Virus record (IMG/VR): IMGVR_UViG_3300045256_000082 | Location: 1 to 38,542 of that record | Length of the DNA stretch: 38,542 bases | Reading direction: 5' to 3' (one strand) | Source of the DNA: a virus | In this document: piece by piece, positions 2,686 through 28,449 of the stretch | How the letters are laid out: each line of letters starts with the position of its first letter | Position numbering within the stretch: the stretch's first letter is position 1 | Position numbers and translations under genes: made by a program | The notes under the pieces: model-generated | Database searches by the model: none | What the model was told of the DNA's origin: nothing | The model's input: the letters and a program-made list of their open reading frames with translations, nothing else

Positions 2686-3003
2686 GACCTGTTGGCCTAG
2701 CTTGACGAACGCGGCGGTGTGCTGTGTCTCGTGGTGGTCGATCCGAACTTCCTTCTCGTACAGGTGTACCATCTCATGCGCCATGACACGCATCAGCATG
2801 TCGGTCGACCCCACGGTGTATTCCGAGATTGCGATGATGTGCTGACCGTCGATGCAGTCATACCAACCGAACAGCGTCCGGCTCTTGATCACGCGCCACG
2901 CGATGTCCTCTGACTCCGGCAGGTTCCAGCGATGGAAGGGCGGCGTCGTGCGAAGATAATCGTACGCCGCCGCAAGCGTTTCGCACGTCAGGGGCAGGCT
3001 CAT
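2650..3003 (-). CDS. SprT-like zinc metalloprotease (zincin)
   Basis: A 117-residue protein with the zincin motif HEMVH at residues 76-80 and a third likely zinc ligand at His95 (ETQHTAAF), as in SprT/Spartan-like proteins. Those enzymes cleave proteins on DNA, but the substrate here is unknown. I chose the ATG at 3003 because its ATGA overlaps the stop of the DNA polymerase, so the two are translationally coupled. It is shorter than cellular SprT and has no C-terminal zinc ribbon. Its last 36 bases overlap a gene on the other strand. Confidence 0.8.
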   Translation of the reverse strand: MSLPLTCETLAAAYDYLRTTPPFHRWNLPESEDIAWRVIKSRTLFGWYDCIDGQHIIAISEYTVGSTDMLMRVMAHEMVHLYEKEVRIDHHETQHTAAFVKLGQQVSRVHCFDPKAF

Positions 3004-5063
3004 GCTTTCTTGTACCTTTCGCCGTCCCACGCACTGGCCGCGATCGGCAACCCTTCCGCCCACGCCGGCAGCTCGCACACGATCGCCTCGAATTCTTCGA
3101 GCGACCCGTGCGACACCGCGGGCTCCGCAACAGCTTCGTCGTGCACCGTGAGAATGATCGGGTAGCCGCGGCGCTCTAGGCGCTTCATCGCTTCGCGCAG
3201 AATGTCGCTTGCGATCCCCTGGTCGGCGTTCTCAGTCGTGAGACCGCCGTACGCGTAGCACGGCCCCCATTTGCGCGTGTAGCTGTCCTGTCCCTGATAC
3301 TCGACAACATCGCGCGGCTCGCTCGTGATCTCGATCTTGCCGGCGCGTTCCAACTCGACGGCACGCTCCCAAAGGATCGAGCGCGGGCGACCAAGATGGT
3401 CGCGTATCCATGCGAATTGAGCGATGCGCGGGTACGGGTAACAGATCGACCGGCCCGAAGGCAGCCGCATCCACAGGAAGCTGCCGGCGGTGCGCCACGC
3501 GAGCACACCGGACTTCACGATCTTGCCCGGATGCTGCACGGCGTACAGTTGCGCGTCCTCAATGTCGCGCCACATGTCCGTCACGCGGGGATGGGCTTGC
3601 CGCCACTTCCGCTTCCATTCGTCGGCGGTCTTTGCGTCGAGCTTGATCTTGTACGCGGCGGCCATTGACTGCAGAGCGGACACGCCGCCCTCATAGCCAA
3701 GCGCCAGCTCTTGCACCTTGCCGCCTTGCCGCTGGTCTTTGGTGACTTGCTCAACCGGAATTCCGAACGAGCGCGCCCACGCCAGGATGTATAGGTCGGG
3801 ACCGGTGCCGGCGTCATAGTCGCGGAACGCCTGCAGCTTCCAGTCCTCACCCGCCATCCACGCAAGGATTCGGCCTTCAATGTTCGCGAAGTCGGCCGCC
3901 ATGATGCGGCGACCCTTGGCCGCCGTGATCATGCCGCGCAGACAATCGCCGACGACTGACAGCGGCTCGCCATATTGGCGGACGACTTCGATGTCGCCGG
4001 TCGCAACGGCCTCGATCGCTTCGTCGATCTCGCCTTCCTTCAGCTGCGGGCGCTTGATGTTCTGAGGCTGGAAGCGACGGCCCGCCCAACGACCGGTAGA
4101 CGCGGCGTGGAATTGCAGCAGCCCACGAGCGCGGTTGTCGTGCGAGCGGCCAAGCAGCAGCGCCTCAATCTTCTTCACGCTTGCCTTGGCGGCTTCGCGC
4201 CGGAGCTCAAGCGCGCGGCGCACGTGATCGGGAAGATCCAAGCCAAGCAGCTCGTCGATCGCCTGCTTGTCTAATCCGTCCGTCTGCCAACCCCGCAAGC
4301 GCAACCATTCAGCCAGGCGCACGACATTGGAGCACTTCTCGACGTGCCCGCCCGTGACTTCTCGCATCTCTTCGTCGAGCAGATCGGCGGCTTGGTCGAC
4401 GATCTGCAACGCGGCGAGGCACAGCGCCGTGTCGACATAGACGCCGCGGTCGTTGATGATCTGGTCGAGCCACCACGTTTGTTGTTCGGACGGCGACAGC
4501 GGCAGCAGCCGCTCGTGCAGCTTGCGCTCAACCTCGACGTCGTTCTTGCAGTAGGCATAGAGGCGCTGTTTGCGGGCGTCGTCGTCGAACCAATAAATGC
4601 CGTCCGGGTTCTCACCTTTACGCGGCCGGCGCGGCTTCGCCATTTGCATCATGAGCGCGCGCCCGCCCATGTCCTTCCCGATCTCGACACCGGCGACCGC
4701 TGCCGCATTGCTCAATGCGGCAGGCAACGACATGGCCAGAGCGCACGCCATCGTGCAACGCCATTGCGTGAGCTTCGGGATTGGCCACCCGTAACGCGGG
4801 CCAAGGATGCCGCGCCACATGACCCGCTCGAAAGCGGCGTTGTGCGCGATGATCTGCCAGCCTTCACGAACCGCGGACTGAACGGCGAGAGGCGCTTCTG
4901 CACGACCCGCCGGAATCCATAGCCCGATTGGCTCGTCGTCGACGGCGTACGCCGCGCACCAAACATCGGTCGTCGGATCGGCGGCGTAGCGATACACGCC
5001 GGACTTGGGAAGATCGACGGTCGAGCGCGATTCAAGATCGATGTGTAACGTGTGTACCGACAT
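3000..5063 (-). CDS. Family A DNA polymerase with 3'-5' proofreading exonuclease
   Basis: The 687-residue replicative polymerase. Exonuclease motifs: D9/E11 (LHIDLES), N75-F78 (AHNAAFE) and Y171-D175 (YCKND). Polymerase motif A is D391 (AADFANIEGR), motif B is R445-K449 up to LGYEGG, and motif C is H641-D642-E643 (TVHDEAVAE). The 5'-3' exonuclease domain of bacterial Pol I is absent, as usual in phage. The start ATG sits directly behind a TGTAGGAA element that also supplies the stop codon of the upstream gene. It should work with the primase-helicase at 14357 and the ssDNA-binding protein at 8255. Confidence 0.97.
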   Translation of the reverse strand: MSVHTLHIDLESRSTVDLPKSGVYRYAADPTTDVWCAAYAVDDEPIGLWIPAGRAEAPLAVQSAVREGWQIIAHNAAFERVMWRGILGPRYGWPIPKLTQWRCTMACALAMSLPAALSNAAAVAGVEIGKDMGGRALMMQMAKPRRPRKGENPDGIYWFDDDARKQRLYAYCKNDVEVERKLHERLLPLSPSEQQTWWLDQIINDRGVYVDTALCLAALQIVDQAADLLDEEMREVTGGHVEKCSNVVRLAEWLRLRGWQTDGLDKQAIDELLGLDLPDHVRRALELRREAAKASVKKIEALLLGRSHDNRARGLLQFHAASTGRWAGRRFQPQNIKRPQLKEGEIDEAIEAVATGDIEVVRQYGEPLSVVGDCLRGMITAAKGRRIMAADFANIEGRILAWMAGEDWKLQAFRDYDAGTGPDLYILAWARSFGIPVEQVTKDQRQGGKVQELALGYEGGVSALQSMAAAYKIKLDAKTADEWKRKWRQAHPRVTDMWRDIEDAQLYAVQHPGKIVKSGVLAWRTAGSFLWMRLPSGRSICYPYPRIAQFAWIRDHLGRPRSILWERAVELERAGKIEITSEPRDVVEYQGQDSYTRKWGPCYAYGGLTTENADQGIASDILREAMKRLERRGYPIILTVHDEAVAEPAVSHGSLEEFEAIVCELPAWAEGLPIAASAWDGERYKKA

Positions 5064-5071
5064 TTCCTACA
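5064..5071 (-). promoter_or_regulatory. TGTAGGAA element overlapping the polymerase start
   Basis: On the minus strand TGTAGGAA is directly followed by the polymerase ATG. It contains the TAG stop of the upstream gene, and its AGGA can serve as ribosome site. A protein bound here, on DNA or mRNA, could control polymerase synthesis; that part is inference. Confidence 0.45.
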
Positions 5072-5450
5072 CAGCGGTCAAAATAAAAGACAAAGCCGCG
5101 TCGAAAGAGTCGAGAACAGCATGGCTGTGATACCTCAACCATGGGCTGACGGAAGCCCCTTTCTTCGCCACCACGACAACCAACTTTCCAGCGTTGAAAG
5201 CGAGAAGCACTTCCATACTGGTGCCAACGCTTGGCTTGTCATAATTGACGAGAATCACGTCACTGTTCGCGATATCAATTTTGTCGAATTCAACAATCTC
5301 ATCCACGCACTGATCCTCGCGCCCGCGATAATCGCGCCGCATCGGGTCCAGTGTTTTCCCTGACCACTTCGCCTTTACTAGCTCGCGCCAATCTTTGCAC
5401 TCGTCATCAGTGCACCCATTGATTGGCCCGCAAAGGTAGATGGTTTTCAT
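5067..5450 (-). CDS. Nucleoside 2-deoxyribosyltransferase-like protein
   Basis: A 127-residue protein. The N-terminal IYLCGPI, the DIANSDVILVNYDKPS stretch and GTSME, where Glu80 would be the catalytic nucleophile, match the nucleoside 2-deoxyribosyltransferase superfamily. These enzymes swap or remove the base of deoxynucleosides. The start at 5450 has a good AGGAGA ribosome site. It lies between the DpdA-like gene and the polymerase, and a second member of the same fold is at 6950-7321. The substrate is unknown; base exchange, nucleoside hydrolysis or salvage are possible. Confidence 0.8.
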   Translation of the reverse strand: MKTIYLCGPINGCTDDECKDWRELVKAKWSGKTLDPMRRDYRGREDQCVDEIVEFDKIDIANSDVILVNYDKPSVGTSMEVLLAFNAGKLVVVVAKKGASVSPWLRYHSHAVLDSFDAALSFILTAV

Positions 5451-5464
5451 CTTTCTCTCCTGTT

Positions 5465-6181
5465 TTAGGCAAGCATGCACATCATCGTGATGCGCGCTGT
5501 CCACTCCGCAGCTTCGCGCCAATCATTCTGGTTTCGACCGTTTCGCCGGGCGGCGAAGGACCAAGCCATGCTGTCGGCGCTATGAAGAAGATTGATTACG
5601 GTGGCGCTGGTTAGGGCTGTTATCTTGACGCCAAACCCATGCAGCAACAGGTCTGGCCGTTTGCTCTTGATCGCAACCAGAATGCTTTCGATAGTCCCTA
5701 CGTTCGCGTTCCGCTTACAAACAGAACCGACACCCACATACATCCCAGGCTTAAGCCGATCCTCGTATTGATCGATATGATCGAGATAGTCGACCACCTC
5801 GTAGCCCTGCAGAACCAGCATGATGTAGGTGCGCGGCACGAGCGGCAGCAAGGCGTCATACCGCTCGATCGTTCGGCGCTGATGTTCTCGAACGGACAAA
5901 CCCGTCTTCGCTACGATCCACGGCTCGCACATCCAATCCTGTGAAACAGCCGCGACTAAACCGGAGCCCGGGTATGACCACCGATTGATCTCAGCCGCGT
6001 ACTCACCCACGCCATGGCGATACTTCCCGTGCGTGGCGATTTCCGTGAACGCGCCAGAGTCCATGATCCATTCGCGTGCTTGGATGGGCTTCTTTCGGTC
6101 CCGCAGCCGGTTTACCGATATGAAAGCTCTGTCAAAGTGCCCTGCATCGGATGGCTGATGCAGCCCGGTGTAGAACAGCAT
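5465..6181 (-). CDS. dpdA: DpdA-like DNA-guanine transglycosylase (7-deazaguanine DNA modification)
   Basis: A 238-residue protein resembling phage DpdA, a relative of tRNA-guanine transglycosylase that replaces guanine in DNA with a 7-deazaguanine base. Features seen: MDSGAF at 40-45, QDW at 81-83, QGYEVVDYL at 125-133, VGVGSVCKR at 149-157, HGFGVK at 181-186 and SADSMAW at 201-207. In DpdA phages this modification blocks host restriction enzymes. No preQ0-synthesis genes (FolE, QueD, QueE, QueC) are in the window, so the precursor would come from the host or from genes outside. It follows the diphosphohydrolase gene by 8 bases. The ribosome site is weak. Confidence 0.85.
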   Translation of the reverse strand: MLFYTGLHQPSDAGHFDRAFISVNRLRDRKKPIQAREWIMDSGAFTEIATHGKYRHGVGEYAAEINRWSYPGSGLVAAVSQDWMCEPWIVAKTGLSVREHQRRTIERYDALLPLVPRTYIMLVLQGYEVVDYLDHIDQYEDRLKPGMYVGVGSVCKRNANVGTIESILVAIKSKRPDLLLHGFGVKITALTSATVINLLHSADSMAWSFAARRNGRNQNDWREAAEWTARITMMCMLA

Positions 6182-6189
6182 GCGGCCGA

Positions 6190-6780
6190 CTATCTGGCCC
6201 CTCGCGGCTTCGACAAGCTCAGATCGCGTTCAAGTTCTTCCTGCAGCAGCGCGAGCGCGCGCCATGCGAGCTGCGCCGAATGCCGGTTGCCGTCCTGGTC
6301 GAAGCCGCCGCGTTCGGTCAGGTGACGCGCGATGCAGTCGGCGTGATCCATCGACTTGCCGCGCGCCCAATGCAGCGGTTGGCCGGGGTTGTGCTTCTCA
6401 TTCCCGCGATGGCTGATGTTGGAAACTGAAGCGAGCGCGTCGGGGAAATAGTCAAGCAGGCCGGAACACATCGGCATGAGCTTGCGCAAGTCGCTGTCGG
6501 TGTCGAGCAAACGCTTTGGCGGGACTTCTTCGCCGCCGTAGCTATGCGCCAACTCGGGCGCCTTCCCGGCTTGGCGTTCGGCTTCGCGTTGCTCATCAAA
6601 ACGGTCGATTGTCTTCTGTGAAGGCATGTGATTGGTCCACCAAGTGAGTTCGGAGCGGTCGATTTCGACCAGCGTTCCGGGCGGCATGATCGAGCCGTCC
6701 GGGTACATTCCGGCCATCGCGCAGATCAGTTCGTATTGGCGTTCGCGGGTCACGCGGTGTTGCCCTTGTTGTGGTTCCAT
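6190..6780 (-). CDS. dATP/dGTP diphosphohydrolase-like protein (DUF5664 type)
   Basis: About 196 residues. The C-terminal half (KHNPGQPLHWARGKSMDHAD, then RHLTERGGFDQDGNRHSAQ and AWRALALLQEELE) is the helical, His/Asp/Glu-rich domain annotated as dATP/dGTP diphosphohydrolase N-terminal domain in phages. It would alter the purine dNTP pool during replication. The ATG at 6780 has GAGGA upstream; a GTG at 6753, overlapping the previous stop as GTGA, is an equally possible start. It lies directly before the DpdA-like gene, consistent with a nucleotide and DNA-modification cluster. The exact nucleotide handled cannot be told from sequence. Confidence 0.8.
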   Translation of the reverse strand: MEPQQGQHRVTRERQYELICAMAGMYPDGSIMPPGTLVEIDRSELTWWTNHMPSQKTIDRFDEQREAERQAGKAPELAHSYGGEEVPPKRLLDTDSDLRKLMPMCSGLLDYFPDALASVSNISHRGNEKHNPGQPLHWARGKSMDHADCIARHLTERGGFDQDGNRHSAQLAWRALALLQEELERDLSLSKPRGAR

Positions 6781-6947
6781 CGCAGCGCTTCCTCTGCAGC
6801 TCGCCGCAAGTCCGCCATGCGCCCGCGCAGCGCTTTCCGTTGGCGCCACCCTTCGAGCGTCGAGAGATCACACGCGGCGATCTGCGCGTGCGTATCGATG
6901 ATCTCTTTGAACAGCGGCGGGATACGCTGCGGGGCGTTGGTGAACAT
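6750..6947 (-). CDS. Small helical hypothetical protein
   Basis: A 65-residue protein, mostly helical and charged (WRQRKALRGRMADLRRAAEEAL), with no recognised family. Its ATG lies two bases after the stop of the deoxyribosyltransferase-fold gene, and its end overlaps the start of the diphosphohydrolase-like gene, so it sits in one tightly packed operon. A helper or oligomerisation role is possible but nothing in the sequence shows it. Confidence 0.6.
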   Translation of the reverse strand: MFTNAPQRIPPLFKEIIDTHAQIAACDLSTLEGWRQRKALRGRMADLRRAAEEALRWNHNKGNTA

Positions 6948-6949
6948 GA

Positions 6950-7321
6950 TCAGCCCGGATAATCGAGGCCGCGGATCGGGACGACAGTCAGGCACAGCGC
7001 GTCAGCGGTGGCCTTCTCGGCGATTGCGCCTTTGCTGTTCTCCCAACCGGGCAGCAGCGCGATCCCTTCGGCTTCCGCACAAATCCACGCCAAGTCCATG
7101 CCAAGCGCTTCGCGCAGACTGAACCCGTAATTGGAGGCGGCGACACTCTCGTCACCGGTCGGGTTGTTCTTCGAGATGTCGGTGCCGTGTCGCTCGTTGT
7201 CCTTCTCGGCGGGGTTGAACACCACGTGTCCATCTTCGCGCAGTATCTTCGCGGCGGCGTGGAACGCCGGGAAGTTGAACTCAGGAATCCCCCTCATGGG
7301 GCCGGCAAGGTAGACCTTCAT
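6950..7321 (-). CDS. DUF4406-type deoxyribosyltransferase-fold protein
   Basis: A 123-residue protein with the typical start MKVYLAGPMRG, then FNFPAFHAAA, GHVVFNPAEKD and, near the C-terminus, GAIAEKATA, where Glu102 is in the position of the deoxyribosyltransferase nucleophile. DUF4406 proteins are common in phages and have no settled function. It is a distant relative of the 5067-5450 protein; the pair flank the diphosphohydrolase and DpdA-like genes. The start ATG lies just after the stop of the GcrA-like gene, with GGAGA upstream. Confidence 0.85.
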   Translation of the reverse strand: MKVYLAGPMRGIPEFNFPAFHAAAKILREDGHVVFNPAEKDNERHGTDISKNNPTGDESVAASNYGFSLREALGMDLAWICAEAEGIALLPGWENSKGAIAEKATADALCLTVVPIRGLDYPG

Positions 7322-7322
7322 G

Positions 7323-7664
7323 TCATTCTCCGTTCTGGTCGAGTTCGCCGACCAATCTGATAAGGTGTTCGGTTGGCTCGCGGCGTGCCATCGACTCGAT
7401 GGAAAAGCGCACGTTGCTACGCACGTAGCCGCGTCCATCGGTGTGGCGTGCCCTGCCTATGAGGGTGATGCTGCGGTCGGTGCCGTAGATCATCGCCTCA
7501 AGAGCCCGTAGGCTCTTGCTGCTCTTGCCGCGGTGGTAGCGGGCTTTGCACTCAGGGCAGTACGGTTCGCCCTGTGCAGCCGGCGCGCCGCAGAAGAAGT
7601 GCGGCGGCCCCGCGGTCAGCGGGCCGCGGCACTCGCGCGGCCCCAACTCCAAGATTGTGAACAT
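7323..7664 (-). CDS. GcrA-like sigma-interacting domain protein lacking the DNA-binding half
   Basis: A 113-residue protein. Residues 10-45 (RECRG, HFFCGAP, GEPYCPECKARY; Cys12, 25, 36, 39) match the C-terminal domain of alphaproteobacterial GcrA, usually CRWPIGDP-FCG-PYC-AY. In GcrA this domain contacts domain 2 of sigma70. The N-terminal helix-turn-helix of cellular GcrA is missing; a different basic domain follows instead. It may therefore bind host RNA polymerase without GcrA's own DNA sites; this role is inference. The ATG overlaps the previous stop as TGATG. The four Cys might also form a plain zinc site. It is the best marker of host class here. Confidence 0.75.
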   Translation of the reverse strand: MFTILELGPRECRGPLTAGPPHFFCGAPAAQGEPYCPECKARYHRGKSSKSLRALEAMIYGTDRSITLIGRARHTDGRGYVRSNVRFSIESMARREPTEHLIRLVGELDQNGE

Positions 7665-8952: not shown

Positions 8953-9024
8953 GACCGGGGGCGGGGTTCGAACCCGCACATGCGCCTTATCACTGCGCTG
9001 CTCTACCTGTTGAGCTACCCCGGT
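8953..9024 (-). tRNA. tRNA-Ile (anticodon GAT)
   Basis: A full cloverleaf on the minus strand: acceptor stem ACCGGGG/CCCCGGT (7 bp), D stem GCTC/GAGC with a GG-containing loop, anticodon loop GTGATAA with GAT at 34-36, and T arm GCGGG-TTCGAAC-CCCGC. The anticodon stem has four pairs and an A-G mismatch next to the loop, and position 32 is G. CCA is not encoded. It reads ATC codons, which are frequent in these genes, so a supply role is unlikely to be the only reason; resistance to host anticodon cleavage is another possibility. Confidence 0.85.
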
Positions 9025-14198: not shown

Positions 14199-14243
14199 AG
14201 CCTATGGTTCCATTACACCCAGTGTCAAGTAGGTTTTGTAGGA
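14199..14243 (-). promoter_or_regulatory. Leftward promoter for the resolvase, with upstream operator
   Basis: On the minus strand TTGACA (14223-14228), 18 bases and TAGGCT (14199-14204) followed by TAGAT. Here the TGTAGG pair (14229-14243) directly abuts the upstream side of the -35 instead of lying in the spacer. The rest of the 14136-14356 gap holds a divergent promoter candidate and no gene that I can support. Confidence 0.65.
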
Positions 14244-14298
14244 CGCGCCGTCCGCACTCTTAAAATACGGATAACGGCGAAGCGCAAAATGCGCTTAT

Positions 14299-17102: not shown

Positions 17103-17173
17103 TCCTCCGCTATCCCCGCAACGTGTGTCGCGGCTACTGCAGCGCCTTGCGGCGCTGCAGAGTGTCGCGTCAC
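17103..17173 (-). repeat. Start-associated leader repeat, unit 1
   Basis: The repeated leader of the small-gene array in mRNA sense: the stop TGA within TGACGCGACA, a 10-bp hairpin (17137-17160, CTGCAGCGCC-GCAA-GGCGCTGCAG), a second small stem CCGC/GCGG, then GCGGGGATAGCGGAGGA before the start codon. The loop is a GNRA tetraloop on the mRNA strand. Two stem pairs differ from the other units and remain paired. Confidence 0.85.
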
Positions 17174-17256
17174 TTAGGCCAGTAGAGCACTAGCAGGTAG
17201 ATGATAAACCCTACCGACAGGAAGTAGCCGCCAAGCGCTTTCGCTACATGAATCAT
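17170..17256 (-). CDS. 28-residue membrane peptide
   Basis: A frame of 28 residues: a short basic start (MIHVAKAL) and one hydrophobic segment (YFLSVGFIIYLLVLYW) ending PK. It begins seven bases after the stop of the 66-residue gene, without its own leader repeat, so translation is probably coupled. Its TGA stop is the first codon of leader unit 1, the same position used by the other array genes, which supports it as a real gene. A host-membrane-directed role would fit. Confidence 0.55.
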   Translation of the reverse strand: MIHVAKALGGYFLSVGFIIYLLVLYWPK

Positions 17257-17469: not shown

Positions 17470-17537
17470 GTCCTCCGGTTCCCCGCGATGTGTCGCGGCT
17501 ACTGCAGCGGCCGGAGCCGCTGCAGAGTGTCGCGTCA
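17470..17537 (-). repeat. Start-associated leader repeat, unit 2
   Basis: Same organisation as unit 1. The hairpin at 17502-17525 has stem CTGCAGCGGC/GCCGCTGCAG and loop UCCG on the mRNA strand closed by C-G, a UNCG tetraloop. The second stem is longer here (CCGCGA/TCGCGG). The stop codon of the 95-residue gene is the first codon of the unit. Confidence 0.85.
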
Positions 17538-17822
17538 CTTGTGACCGATAGTCCGTCTCGGGAACGGGTGCTTGCTCTCTGGCGTGCGAACTTTCATTCG
17601 ATTGCCGCCACCATAGGAAAGCGACCACCCATCCGCCTCTAGCTTAGTCAGCAGCATGAGGCGGAATTGTCGGATATCGTCAACGATAGCGCCTTGCACC
17701 ACGTGTTCATTGATTTCCGTATCAAGTGTGGTCATCAATCGGCCCAGTCGAGAGCACACGGCGCGATCTGTGCTTGACAGTCCCGTATTCCAGGGCACGC
17801 AATAGCGCGTGGTCTTTGGCAT
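17535..17822 (-). CDS. Small array protein, 95 residues
   Basis: A protein of unknown family with a long helical middle (DDIRQFRLMLLTKLEADGW) and a basic C-terminus (NRMKVRTPESKHPFPRR). The ATG has GGAGGA six bases upstream in leader unit 3. The stop lies at the first codon of leader unit 2. Array position suggests an early, host-directed role; there is no direct evidence. Confidence 0.65.
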   Translation of the reverse strand: MPKTTRYCVPWNTGLSSTDRAVCSRLGRLMTTLDTEINEHVVQGAIVDDIRQFRLMLLTKLEADGWSLSYGGGNRMKVRTPESKHPFPRRTIGHK

Positions 17823-17826
17823 GGTA

Positions 17827-17895
17827 GTTCCTCCGTTATCCCCGCATTGGCGCGGCTACTGCAGCGGCTCGCGCCGCTGCAGTGTGTCGCGTCAA
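17827..17895 (-). repeat. Start-associated leader repeat, unit 3
   Basis: The hairpin at 17859-17882 has a perfect 10-bp stem with loop GCGA on the mRNA strand, a GNRA tetraloop. A second stem CCGC/GCGG has a six-base loop. GGGGATAACGGAGGA leads to the start codon. Nearly identical to unit 4. Confidence 0.85.
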
Positions 17896-18128
17896 TTGGA
17901 AGTGTCGCCGAGCTTTCGCGCGTCACTAACGAGCGTTAGCAAGGCGGGGCCGTCAAAGTCGTGGGTATCAAGCCGCTTGCCGGATTCGTCGTATGCTTCC
18001 AAGTCAACCAAATCGCCGTTGCTGGCGAATTCAGCGGACAGAGAATGCAAGTCGTCTGGCAAGCCGTGGCACGGCCACGATCGCTTGAACGCGTCGATTG
18101 CGTCACATCGCAACGTGTACCAAGTCAT
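17892..18128 (-). CDS. Small array protein, 78 residues
   Basis: An acidic protein of unknown family (LHSLSAEFASNGDLVDLEAY, DTHDFDGPALLTLVSDARKL) with two Cys near the N-terminus. The acidic character is common among phage proteins that mimic DNA or inhibit host enzymes, but this alone proves nothing. The start follows GGAGGA in leader unit 4. Confidence 0.65.
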   Translation of the reverse strand: MTWYTLRCDAIDAFKRSWPCHGLPDDLHSLSAEFASNGDLVDLEAYDESGKRLDTHDFDGPALLTLVSDARKLGDTSN

Positions 18129-18130
18129 CA

Positions 18131-18199
18131 GTCCTCCGTTATCCCCGCATTGGCGCGGCTACTGCAGCGGCTCGCTTGCCGCTGCAGTGTGTCGCGTCA
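18131..18199 (-). repeat. Start-associated leader repeat, unit 4
   Basis: The hairpin at 18162-18187 has the same 10-bp stem as unit 3 and a six-base loop AAGCGA on the mRNA strand. The second stem and GGGGATAACGGAGGA are conserved. The first codon is the TGA stop of the upstream 119-residue gene. Confidence 0.85.
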
Positions 18200-18556: not shown

Positions 18557-18566
18557 AGTGTCGTAT

Positions 18567-18633
18567 CCTCCGGTTCCCCGCGATGTGTCGCGGCTACTGC
18601 AGCGGCCGGAGCCGCTGCAGGGTGTCGCGTCAC
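18567..18633 (-). repeat. Start-associated leader repeat, unit 5
   Basis: The hairpin at 18597-18620 has the 10-bp stem with UCCG loop (UNCG type) on the mRNA strand, like unit 2, and the longer second stem CCGCGA/TCGCGG. TGACGCGACA is present at its beginning, but no convincing gene ends there, suggesting that a module was lost in front of it. Confidence 0.8.
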
Positions 18634-18641
18634 TGAGGTGC

Positions 18642-20016: not shown

Positions 20017-20047
20017 GGCATAGCCCCGGCCCTTTATAGCTCGTCGC

Positions 20048-20089
20048 TTGACTAGTTTGTAGGTTTCGTAGGATACTAAGACCTACAAG
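20048..20089 (+). promoter_or_regulatory. Tail-fibre operon promoter with operator
   Basis: TTGACT (20048-20053), 18 bases and GATACT (20072-20077), followed by AAGAC. The spacer contains TGTAGGTTTCGTAGGA (20058-20073) and CCTACA follows at 20082-20087. It is one of the best examples of the shared promoter form. Confidence 0.7.
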
Positions 20090-22332: not shown

Positions 22333-22334
22333 GC

Positions 22335-22370
22335 TTGACTGCGTTGTAGGTTTTGTAGGAAGCTAAGACA
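22335..22370 (+). promoter_or_regulatory. Promoter very close to the second fibre start
   Basis: TTGACT (22335-22340), 18 bases and GAAGCT (22359-22364), followed by AAGACATACA. The spacer holds TGTAGGTTTTGTAGGA (22345-22360). The ATG is at 22375, ten bases after the -10, so transcripts from this promoter would have almost no leader. Confidence 0.65.
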
Positions 22371-22374
22371 TACA

Positions 22375-26248: not shown

Positions 26249-28411
26249 ATGGCTGAAGAAGTAGAAGTCTCTGCGCCCGCGCCGGCCGCAGCCCCGACAG
26301 CGGCGGCAGTGCCGCAGAATCCGGTTTTTGACGACCAGAACAATCGGCTGCCGGAGCCGGACGAGGCGCAAAAGGCGTTTATCAAGGGTTGGATGGGCCG
26401 CATCGCGGCGGGTAAGAGGCATTGGGAGACGACCTTCGCGCGCATGCGCAAGTGCATGGAAATCGCAAAGGCCGGCGCCGACTCGTCGTGGGCGAAGCTG
26501 AACGAGGAAGGCGGCAACTACGTTGTGCCGATCATCAACCGGCACATCAACCAGTCTGTCGCGCAGACCTACGCCAAGAACCCGAAGGCGTATTGCGAGC
26601 GTAAGCGGCGCCGCATGTACGCGGTTTGGGACGGCAAGCTGGCGTCGCTGTACGAAGCGATCGAGACGGTGCAAACGGCTATACAGGTTGGCATGCCGCC
26701 GGACCCGAACGCGATGGCGATCATCAACGATGTCGCGCAAGTCCAGGCATACAATAACATGATGGATGGTATGGCGGAAACGCTCGAAATCCTTCATGAC
26801 TATTTCATCAACGAGCAGTCCGCCGGCTACAAGCAGCAGTTCAAGGCCGCCGTCCGGCGAGCGCGCGTGAACGGCATCGCGTACGTCGATCTACAGTTCC
26901 AACGCCTTTTGGAGCCGCGGCCGGACGTGACGGCAGAAATCCGGGACATGACTGCGCAGGTCGCGACTGTTGAGGCGCGGCTGCGGCAGATGGCGCGCGG
27001 CGAGATCGAGGAAGACGAGGCGAAGTTTGAGGAACTGCGCCTGGCTCTCGCCGAGCTGCAGAAGGATGAATACAAGATCGTCCGCGAAGGGCCGGTCTAT
27101 GCGTTCCCGAAGTCGACGCAGGTCATCCTCGACCCGGAAGTGAAACACATCAAGACGCTGGCGGGCGCCGACTGGTGGGCTCTCGAATTCGAAATGACGC
27201 CCGACAGGATCGAGGCGACTTATAAGATCAACATCAATGGCCGTTATCAGCAGTACAAGCCAGACGGCGGCCAAAAGACGTATTGGAGTGACTACAAAAA
27301 GAAGGAATGCAGCGACGCACCGGCTCGCGTTTATCGCGTGCAGCAGAAATCGACTGGGCTTGAATTCACGATCTGCGAAGGTTGCGATTACTACCTGAAA
27401 AAGCCGCAGTGCCCGGACGTGAGGATTGAGCGGTTCTTCACGCTGTTTCCGATCGTGTTCAACGAGGTGGAAGACGAGAACGGCGACAGCATTCCGCCGT
27501 CCGATGTCTGGAACGCGCGCCATAGCCAGCAAGAATATAACCGGTCGCGGCAGGGCTTGCGCGAGCATCGTCATATGAACCGGCCCGGGTACTACTCGCC
27601 GGCGCAATCATTGCAGGAAACCGATAAGCAGAAGCTTCAGAATCGCGCACTTGGCGACATCGTGGAAGTAGGTGCCCTGACGCAAGGCGAGAAGCTTGTC
27701 GATAAGCTCGCGCCGATCCCGACCGTGCCGCTCGACCCGAACCTGTACGAAGTGGAGTCGCTGTATAACGACATGCTGCGGACGGTCGGATCGCAACAGG
27801 CGAACATGGGCTCGACTGCCGGCGACACCGCGACCGAAAGCAGCATCGCGGAGAACAGCCGGCAGGTTGGCGAAGCGTCCAACGTCGACGATCTCGACGA
27901 TGTGCTCGCCGAGCTGGCGCACGCAACCGGGCAGCTCATGCTCACGGAGCTGAGCAAAGACACCGTGATCGAGATTGTCGGTCCCGGCGCCGTGTGGCCC
28001 GACACGCCGATGACGCGGGAGGAAGCCGCGAAGGACTTGGCGCTGTCGATCAAGGCCGGCTCGTCTGGCCGCCCGAACAAGCCCGCCGAGCTGGCGAACA
28101 TGGAACGCGCCATGCCGTTCGTGACGCAGCTCCCGAATGTGAACCCAACGCCGTTCGCTGAGAAGTTTTGCGGGCTGCTTGACGTCGACGTGAAAGGCGC
28201 GGTGGTCGAAGGCATGCCGTCCATTCAGGCGATCAATGCCATGATGGCCAAGGCGCAGCAGCTTTCGGCGCAGAACGCCAGCAAAAACCCCGCTGAGCAG
28301 GGCGGAAAGGGCGGCGACAACGCGCCGAAGCCTGCCGCGAACGAGCCCGGCGCACAGCCTGCGTACCCGGCGCCGCAGGGCGCCCCGGGCGCTGGCATGG
28401 GTCTTGCTTGA
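26249..28411 (+). CDS. Portal protein
   Basis: A 720-residue protein placed between large terminase and scaffold, where the portal is expected. The length is that of P22-type and related podovirus portals. The N-terminal region contains an Ala/Pro-rich tail and WAKLNEEGGNYVVPIINRHI. A long central helix (MTAQVATVEARLRQMARGEI) and the HSQQEYNRSRQGLREHRHMN stretch suit a portal stem and wing. The C-terminal 50 residues are Pro/Ala/Gly-rich. The stop codon lies within the -35 box of the next promoter. Confidence 0.85.
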   Translation: MAEEVEVSAPAPAAAPTAAAVPQNPVFDDQNNRLPEPDEAQKAFIKGWMGRIAAGKRHWETTFARMRKCMEIAKAGADSSWAKLNEEGGNYVVPIINRHINQSVAQTYAKNPKAYCERKRRRMYAVWDGKLASLYEAIETVQTAIQVGMPPDPNAMAIINDVAQVQAYNNMMDGMAETLEILHDYFINEQSAGYKQQFKAAVRRARVNGIAYVDLQFQRLLEPRPDVTAEIRDMTAQVATVEARLRQMARGEIEEDEAKFEELRLALAELQKDEYKIVREGPVYAFPKSTQVILDPEVKHIKTLAGADWWALEFEMTPDRIEATYKININGRYQQYKPDGGQKTYWSDYKKKECSDAPARVYRVQQKSTGLEFTICEGCDYYLKKPQCPDVRIERFFTLFPIVFNEVEDENGDSIPPSDVWNARHSQQEYNRSRQGLREHRHMNRPGYYSPAQSLQETDKQKLQNRALGDIVEVGALTQGEKLVDKLAPIPTVPLDPNLYEVESLYNDMLRTVGSQQANMGSTAGDTATESSIAENSRQVGEASNVDDLDDVLAELAHATGQLMLTELSKDTVIEIVGPGAVWPDTPMTREEAAKDLALSIKAGSSGRPNKPAELANMERAMPFVTQLPNVNPTPFAEKFCGLLDVDVKGAVVEGMPSIQAINAMMAKAQQLSAQNASKNPAEQGGKGGDNAPKPAANEPGAQPAYPAPQGAPGAGMGLA

Positions 28412-28449
28412 CAGGAATGTAGGAAATAGAGGATACTAAGACCTACACA
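28408..28449 (+). promoter_or_regulatory. Head operon promoter with operator
   Basis: TTGACA (28408-28413), 18 bases and GATACT (28432-28437), followed by AAGAC. The spacer has TGTAGGAAATAGAGGA (28418-28433) and CCTACA follows at 28442-28447. The TGA of the -35 is also the portal stop codon. It should drive scaffold and coat protein. Confidence 0.75.

Follow-up and report, generated by a model that had tools for sequence, protein, structure and literature searches.

A singleton DpdA-type transglycosylase gene in a virus record and the pairing of its clade with YhhQ-family transporter genes

Bacterial DpdA acts together with DpdB, and the DpdA of the bacterial dpd islands (structure 7ui4) has DpdB, DpdC and a restriction operon as partners. 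In phages, the pathway-type DpdAs of CAjan, 9g, the Rosebush group and RHEph05 are proteins of 300-385 aa co-encoded with FolE, QueD, QueE and QueC. DpdA phages that lack such supply genes form the biggest and least understood group: a survey published in 2019 (PMC6884629) counted 76 of them, the largest group it recognised, called the modification status of these singleton-DpdA phages hard to predict, considered that their DpdAs may have diverged functionally, and reported that the YhhQ transporter did not correlate with any DpdA group. A preliminary description of the DNA analysed here had taken the absence of synthesis genes as notable on the ground that DpdA phages often encode their own pathway; by that count, the absence is not unusual. 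Base analyses have been published for a few singleton phages. Salmonella phage 7-11 contains dADG at 0.02% of G and Pantoea phage MED16 reaches 0.13% of G; the DpdAs of SW9 and SEN1 are the nearest to that of MED16. In the DNA of Orion, whose host genus makes no preQ0, 7-deazaguanine was undetected; Orion belongs to Pegunavirus, the genus of Thora, whose DpdA lies in the clade described below, and it is the only phage of the mycobacterial branch of that clade with a base analysis in the literature that we found.

The window, as we call the whole stretch of DNA analysed, is the linear virus record IMGVR_UViG_3300045256_000082, 38,542 bases long. Its dpdA gene occupies positions 5465..6181 on the minus strand and comprises 238 codons, with an ATG at 6181 and a TAA stop at 5467-5465. 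The preliminary description had placed a DpdA-like transglycosylase at exactly these coordinates, leaving the strand unmentioned, and the four motifs that it named are present: MDSGAF at residues 40-45, VGVGSV at 149-154, HGFGVK at 181-186 and SADSMAW at 201-207. The protein matched the DpdA family PF23859 with an E value of 6.5e-43 (147.2 bits, against a curated cut-off of 27), and PHROGs assigned it to phrog_1279 (E 1.3e-68). A sequence search of solved structures with this protein gave no useful match. The AlphaFold model, built from a 40-sequence alignment, reached a mean pLDDT of 95.1 and a pTM of 0.91, and its comparison with known structures (Foldseek, VIA-align) returned the archaeosine TGT 1iq8 (Z 19.5) and the dpd-island DpdA 7ui4, a DNA preQ0 insertase of solved structure (Z 19.0, 16% identity), with 222-225 residues aligned. 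All top structural matches were TGT or DpdA proteins with the TGT-type TIM barrel; the different TIM-barrel family that the preliminary description had named as a refutation was not seen. The assignment of the protein to DpdA by family and fold is therefore near certain. At 238 aa the enzyme is close to a bare barrel, E. coli TGT having 375 residues, 7ui4 413 and the DpdA of CAjan 306. Comparison with its relatives gave pN values of 0.22-0.26 and pS values of 0.70-0.81, with synonymous sites saturated, which indicates that the gene is under purifying selection.

The residues expected at a TGT-type active site are conserved. Asp41, in the DSG motif (codon 6059..6061, minus strand), is the expected general acid/base, equivalent to TGT Asp102, and is invariant in 40/40 and 80/80 relatives. 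Asp82, in QDWMCEP (5936..5938, minus strand), is the putative base-recognition residue, equivalent to TGT Asp156; it is likewise invariant in both sets and is also kept by every aligned pathway DpdA. Asp203, in SADSMAW (5573..5575, minus strand), is the expected nucleophile, equivalent to TGT Asp280, invariant in 80/80 close relatives and present throughout the DpdA clades with the exception of an apparently frameshifted Microcystis phage copy. That copy (phage Mwe-JY25, 4744-5514 of record L046) lacks the Asp203 region after HGFGxK. His181 (5639..5641, minus strand) falls in a histidine column common to all aligned DpdAs that cover it and is probably the conserved DpdA histidine numbered His196 in PMC6884629. 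Besides the two presumed catalytic aspartates, Asp82 and this histidine, all 80 close viral relatives keep Ser42, Gln81, Met84, Cys85, Glu86, Gln125, Gly126, Gly150, Gly152, Ser153, Cys155, Arg157, Phe183, Gly184, Lys186 and Ser204. Since the alignment with E. coli TGT is weak (Asp41 aligned with its DSGGF motif in a local profile match only, E 0.052), the equivalences were drawn from the order of the motifs, from conservation in the family and from the structural match; the roles of Asp41, Asp82, Gln125 and Asp203 are those of established TGT enzymology, which we take to carry over.

The name of the PHROGs family, queuine tRNA-ribosyltransferase, would make tRNA the substrate, and the highest structural Z score does belong to an archaeal tRNA TGT. 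However, the protein matches the DNA family PF23859 and gave no match to the TGT family PF01702 at E <= 1, PF23859 being the sole family found in it; the histidine common to DpdAs is present in it, domains for tRNA binding are missing, and it belongs to a subclade without the Cys/His cluster of its relatives, so that modification of tRNA by the window enzyme appears extremely improbable.

A maximum-likelihood tree of 70 DpdA proteins, which is arbitrarily rooted and has several long branches, resolved separate and strongly supported groups. Orion was represented by Thora, of the same genus, and Rosebush by Glass, annotated as a Rosebushvirus of the rosebush species. The pathway-type group contained CAjan, 9g, MMDA13, RHEph05, Glass, Typha, Funsized, Dp-1 and phiSM; a second group held the gammaproteobacterial singletons 7-11, SEN1, BTP1 and K394 together with that of DMCA, a Caulobacter phage; and the third clade (support 100/100) united the window protein with alphaproteobacterial phages, mycobacteriophages such as Thora and Shandong1, and prophage-like loci of actinobacteria. 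Like the window protein, the gammaproteobacterial singletons (7-11, SEN1, BTP1 and MED16) are compact and have no synthesis genes, but they form a separate clade (100/100) with other pocket residues, and no PF02592 gene was found in 7-11, SEN1 or BTP1; thus the DpdAs of 7-11 and MED16, the phages with trace modification only, fall outside the window clade. The third clade is marked by the invariant residues QDxMCEP, QG, GxGSxCxR and HGFGxK, all of which the window protein carries, whereas pathway DpdAs mostly show LDxIGDP, H, a GxV-type motif and HGFGxT at the corresponding sites. The window DpdA shares the general fold family and the equivalents of Asp41, Asp82, His181 and Asp203 with the pathway type; it is nevertheless not of that type, belonging to another clade, with other pocket residues and with no co-encoded FolE, QueD, QueE or QueC. 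Its nearest described relatives, from Rhizobium phage RHph_TM3_3_3 and Sinorhizobium phage phiLM21, show 58% identity over 95-97% of its length, share its subclade and motifs and have no synthesis genes annotated beside dpdA; both are different phages from that of the window, with different neighbour genes. In RHph_TM3_3_3 (record L044) an attL site is annotated at 6156-6170, inside dpdA, which is odd, since integration there would cut the gene. The cluster B1 mycobacteriophages (Thora, with Orion in the same genus) are about 39-43% identical to the window protein as a group and share all signature residues. They retain a Cys/His cluster near the C terminus that resembles the zinc site of TGT and is found in most third-clade members outside the window subclade; the window subclade has RNxNDWREA in its place.

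These residues also bear on a possible change of substrate in the clade, which might take up a different base or act on a different acceptor (tRNA, host DNA or a protein), in the way of the TGT-family Cap10 of type IV CBASS. The clade-specific invariant residues differ from those of pathway DpdAs, the stem branch is long and supported at 100/100, the functional divergence of singleton DpdAs had been raised in the 2019 survey (PMC6884629), and some enzymes with the TGT fold have roles unconnected with nucleic acids (PMC11996544). The substrate pocket, which differs from that of the enzymes proven to use preQ0, counts against the explanation preferred below. Against a shift, however, Asp41, Asp82 and Asp203 are retained, and the repeated pairing with a preQ0-transporter family in two gene orders, described below, points to a 7-deazaguanine; we consider a changed substrate distinctly improbable.

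No source of the modified base was found in the window itself. The models for QueC (PF06508) and QueD (PF01242) gave no match in the window, nor in any of the 42 related viral records, and tblastn of the window with FolE, QueD, QueE, QueC, QueF, QueT, transporter and ParB-like queries taken from CAjan, 9g, Glass, RHEph05, Dp-1, Funsized and Typha returned nothing below E 0.045; as a control, the FolE, QueC and QueE queries found one another across the reference phages. In the Pfam scan of the main window genes we likewise saw no preQ0-synthesis family, and the preliminary statement that these genes are missing holds for the 38,542-base record. There is also no PF02592 (YhhQ family) gene in the window and no adjoining YhhQ/QPTR gene, nor any open reading frame of at least 80 aa with at least three hydrophobic segments, the sole gene with such segments being a holin-like one of 60 aa. 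As for the partners known from the dpd islands, the ParB-like phage queries (DpdB is ParB-like) had no tblastn match in the window and no such family appeared among the scanned genes; neither DpdC nor a restriction operon was seen in the window. Because it has neither synthesis genes nor a transporter, the window phage would need the preQ0 pool of its host, a source already proposed in the preliminary description and the best one remaining. The missing genes might instead lie on a part of the genome absent from the record, which is linear and carries no completeness estimate. Yet the packaging, capsid, tail and replication modules are all in the record, QueC and QueD occur in 0/42 related viral records, and pathway genes normally adjoin dpdA, as in CAjan, 9g, Glass and RHEph05; this explanation is very improbable.

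The genes that do adjoin dpdA in the window form a co-directed set with it. A gene with the PF18909 domain (dATP/dGTP diphosphohydrolase N-terminal; E 1.3e-9) at 6190..6849 on the minus strand lies directly upstream in the same operon, dpdA follows, a PF05014 nucleoside 2-deoxyribosyltransferase-like gene (E 3.1e-7) at 5067..5453 on the minus strand lies directly downstream, and a family A DNA polymerase occupies 3000-5063; a DUF4406 gene is located nearby at 6950-7438. This nucleotide-metabolism set (PF05014, PF18909, DUF4406) was considered as a group of dpdA partners and rejected, PF18909 and PF05014 being present in 0/42 other DpdA viral records. The single-sequence fold of the PF05014-like protein was too poor for use (pLDDT 43).

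The relatives outside the window's own subclade present a different neighbourhood. PF02592, the YhhQ/QPTR preQ0 transporter family, was the commonest Pfam family among 89 open reading frames around dpdA in 20 relatives, and in whole records it was found in 18/29 viral records outside the window subclade, compared with 1/18 DpdA-negative controls, the latter being relatives of the window terminase or polymerase without DpdA. At 23 loci, six of them prophage-like in bacterial genomes, yhhQ is followed by dpdA on the same strand with 0-45 bases between them and often with a GTGA-type overlap. Some of these loci are one prophage present in two collections, so the 23 are not independent events; together with a looser locus (L034, 704 bases apart) they fall into 13 DpdA clusters at 70% identity and appear to represent about a dozen lineages. 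The reverse order, dpdA directly followed by yhhQ, was seen in phiLM21, where the YhhQ-family gene overlaps the end of dpdA, and in 5/80 loci of the window subclade. A profile made from the phage YhhQ proteins found E. coli YhhQ (E 2.3e-14), for which experiments support a role in preQ0 transport (PMC5372724). That one partner occurs in both gene orders would be hard to explain otherwise than by a shared function, and because of this pairing it is likely that the third DpdA clade uses a 7-deazaguanine. The pairing, which the preliminary description had missed, is the best evidence that the clade handles such a base, and the presence of an importer beside dpdA in many relatives points to scavenging of the base, rather than its synthesis, in this branch of the family. 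Nevertheless, the subclade of the window itself shows the importer link less strongly, since in 75/80 close relatives no transporter lies within about 2.5 kb of dpdA. In the literature that we covered, which is incomplete, no description of a yhhQ pairing in singleton-DpdA phages was found; we therefore regard the pairing provisionally as new, and it contrasts with the lack of correlation stated in the published survey (PMC6884629). A YhhQ-family gene was also present at 1096-1857 of a 7.4 kb viral contig (L091) that carries a relative of the window polymerase and no DpdA family match. Relatives of DpdA occurred further in 73 plasmid records, mostly from Streptomyces and other actinobacteria, with some from Hyphomicrobiales and cyanobacteria; in the two plasmids examined (L205, L206) no YhhQ gene was found within 4 kb.

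The hosts seem to differ in their capacity to supply the base. Among 11 bacterial genomes that carry the third-clade type of DpdA, TGT was absent from nine and full-length QueC from eight, and most of these carriers lack both. PF06508 matches were obtained in 9/11 carriers, but only three were full length (E about 1e-74); the others were short and partial, with E values of 1e-3 to 1e-6, and were counted as not QueC. The TGT search was positive in 14/14 control genomes. As the carriers mostly lack TGT and full-length QueC, an importer makes sense in such hosts. Copies of the window subclade come from Rhizobium and Sinorhizobium phages and from Methylocapsa and Shinella plasmids, and the window phage probably infects an alphaproteobacterium of Hyphomicrobiales type. 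Caulobacter, the control alphaproteobacterium, has QueC, QueD and TGT, and preQ0 is probably made by the hosts in which the window subclade occurs; the window phage would then draw on that host pool.

Therefore, the window clade is best read as one of 7-deazaguanine salvage enzymes that take the base ready-made. For the window DpdA we propose, with moderate confidence, a TGT-type exchange in DNA of guanine for a salvaged or host-made 7-deazaguanine, leading to partial modification and to shielding from restriction. The exchange would proceed by double displacement, the attack of Asp203 on C1' of a target deoxyguanosine expelling guanine; the incoming free base, most likely preQ0 made by the host for queuosine, would be held in a pocket formed by Asp82, Cys85, Gln125 and Gly150-Gly152; and Asp41 would serve as acid/base during formation of the new glycosidic bond. 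Some sites would thereby be shielded from restriction. For the clade as a whole, an idea to which we give an even chance is that these DpdAs, the largest orphan clade in phages, belong to a two-gene salvage module composed of a YhhQ importer and the base-exchange enzyme, that the members without an importer live on preQ0-making hosts, and that phages such as Orion appear unmodified only for want of supply from host or medium. Besides the pocket residues, the unmodified DNA of Orion, the 75/80 relatives without a transporter and the failure to find a ParB/DpdB-like partner count against the explanation proposed for the window DpdA.

The same negative for Orion fits another account, in which the enzyme functions as a 7-deazaguanine transglycosylase and yet is, in this phage, a mobile passenger that rarely meets its substrate, virion DNA being essentially unmodified. 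The gene is sporadic: 18 records related to the window phage by structural or polymerase genes do not have it; no window neighbour recurs beside dpdA in other records (BLAST), and dpdA also occurs on plasmids. On the other hand, the strong purifying selection and the expected active site kept in 80/80 relatives argue for use, and a preQ0 pool is probably available in the hosts of the window subclade, so that we hold a mere passenger to be unlikely. The earlier statement that the phage DNA probably contains a 7-deazaguanine was nonetheless too strong, given the separate clade, the negative in Orion and the mere traces in 7-11 and MED16. Counts of hexamer palindromes were tried as a sign of protection and rejected, as the window has 0.88 of expectation while the proven modified CAjan and 9g have 0.75. 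In a structural relative without DpdA (L077) these palindromes stand at 0.37 of expectation, and in the DpdA-bearing L012 at 0.56.

The window gene itself is a good but unremarkable example of a DpdA group already known, and the novelty lies in the importer pattern of the clade. The pairing of importer and enzyme gives the singleton-DpdA group a testable function, and it would explain the puzzling negative for Orion. If the salvage reading is true, DNA modification in these phages hinges on the environment or on host supply, laboratory tests in preQ0-free medium would miss it, and, with the two-gene module, phages, prophages and plasmids could mark DNA in hosts unable to make preQ0.

Some further features of the window were observed. 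Near its left end, 779-1711 encodes a family 2 glycosyltransferase (PF00535, E 2.4e-18) that could target the host surface or modified DNA, and a tRNA-Ile (GAT) gene lies at 8953-9024, in the leftward region. Repeats of the GTAGGTTTTGTAGGA type occur at gene-block boundaries (20-41, 179-200, 14229-14250, 20046-20087, 22333-22374 and 28406-28447); they are partly inverted (75-97 versus 173-195) and resemble phage-specific promoters or operators. Five dispersed copies of an element of 60-70 bases (17106-17174, 17471-17539, 17828-17896, 18132-18199 and 18566-18634), in which GCAGCGGC...GCCGCTGC forms a strong inverted repeat, are located between short minus-strand open reading frames.
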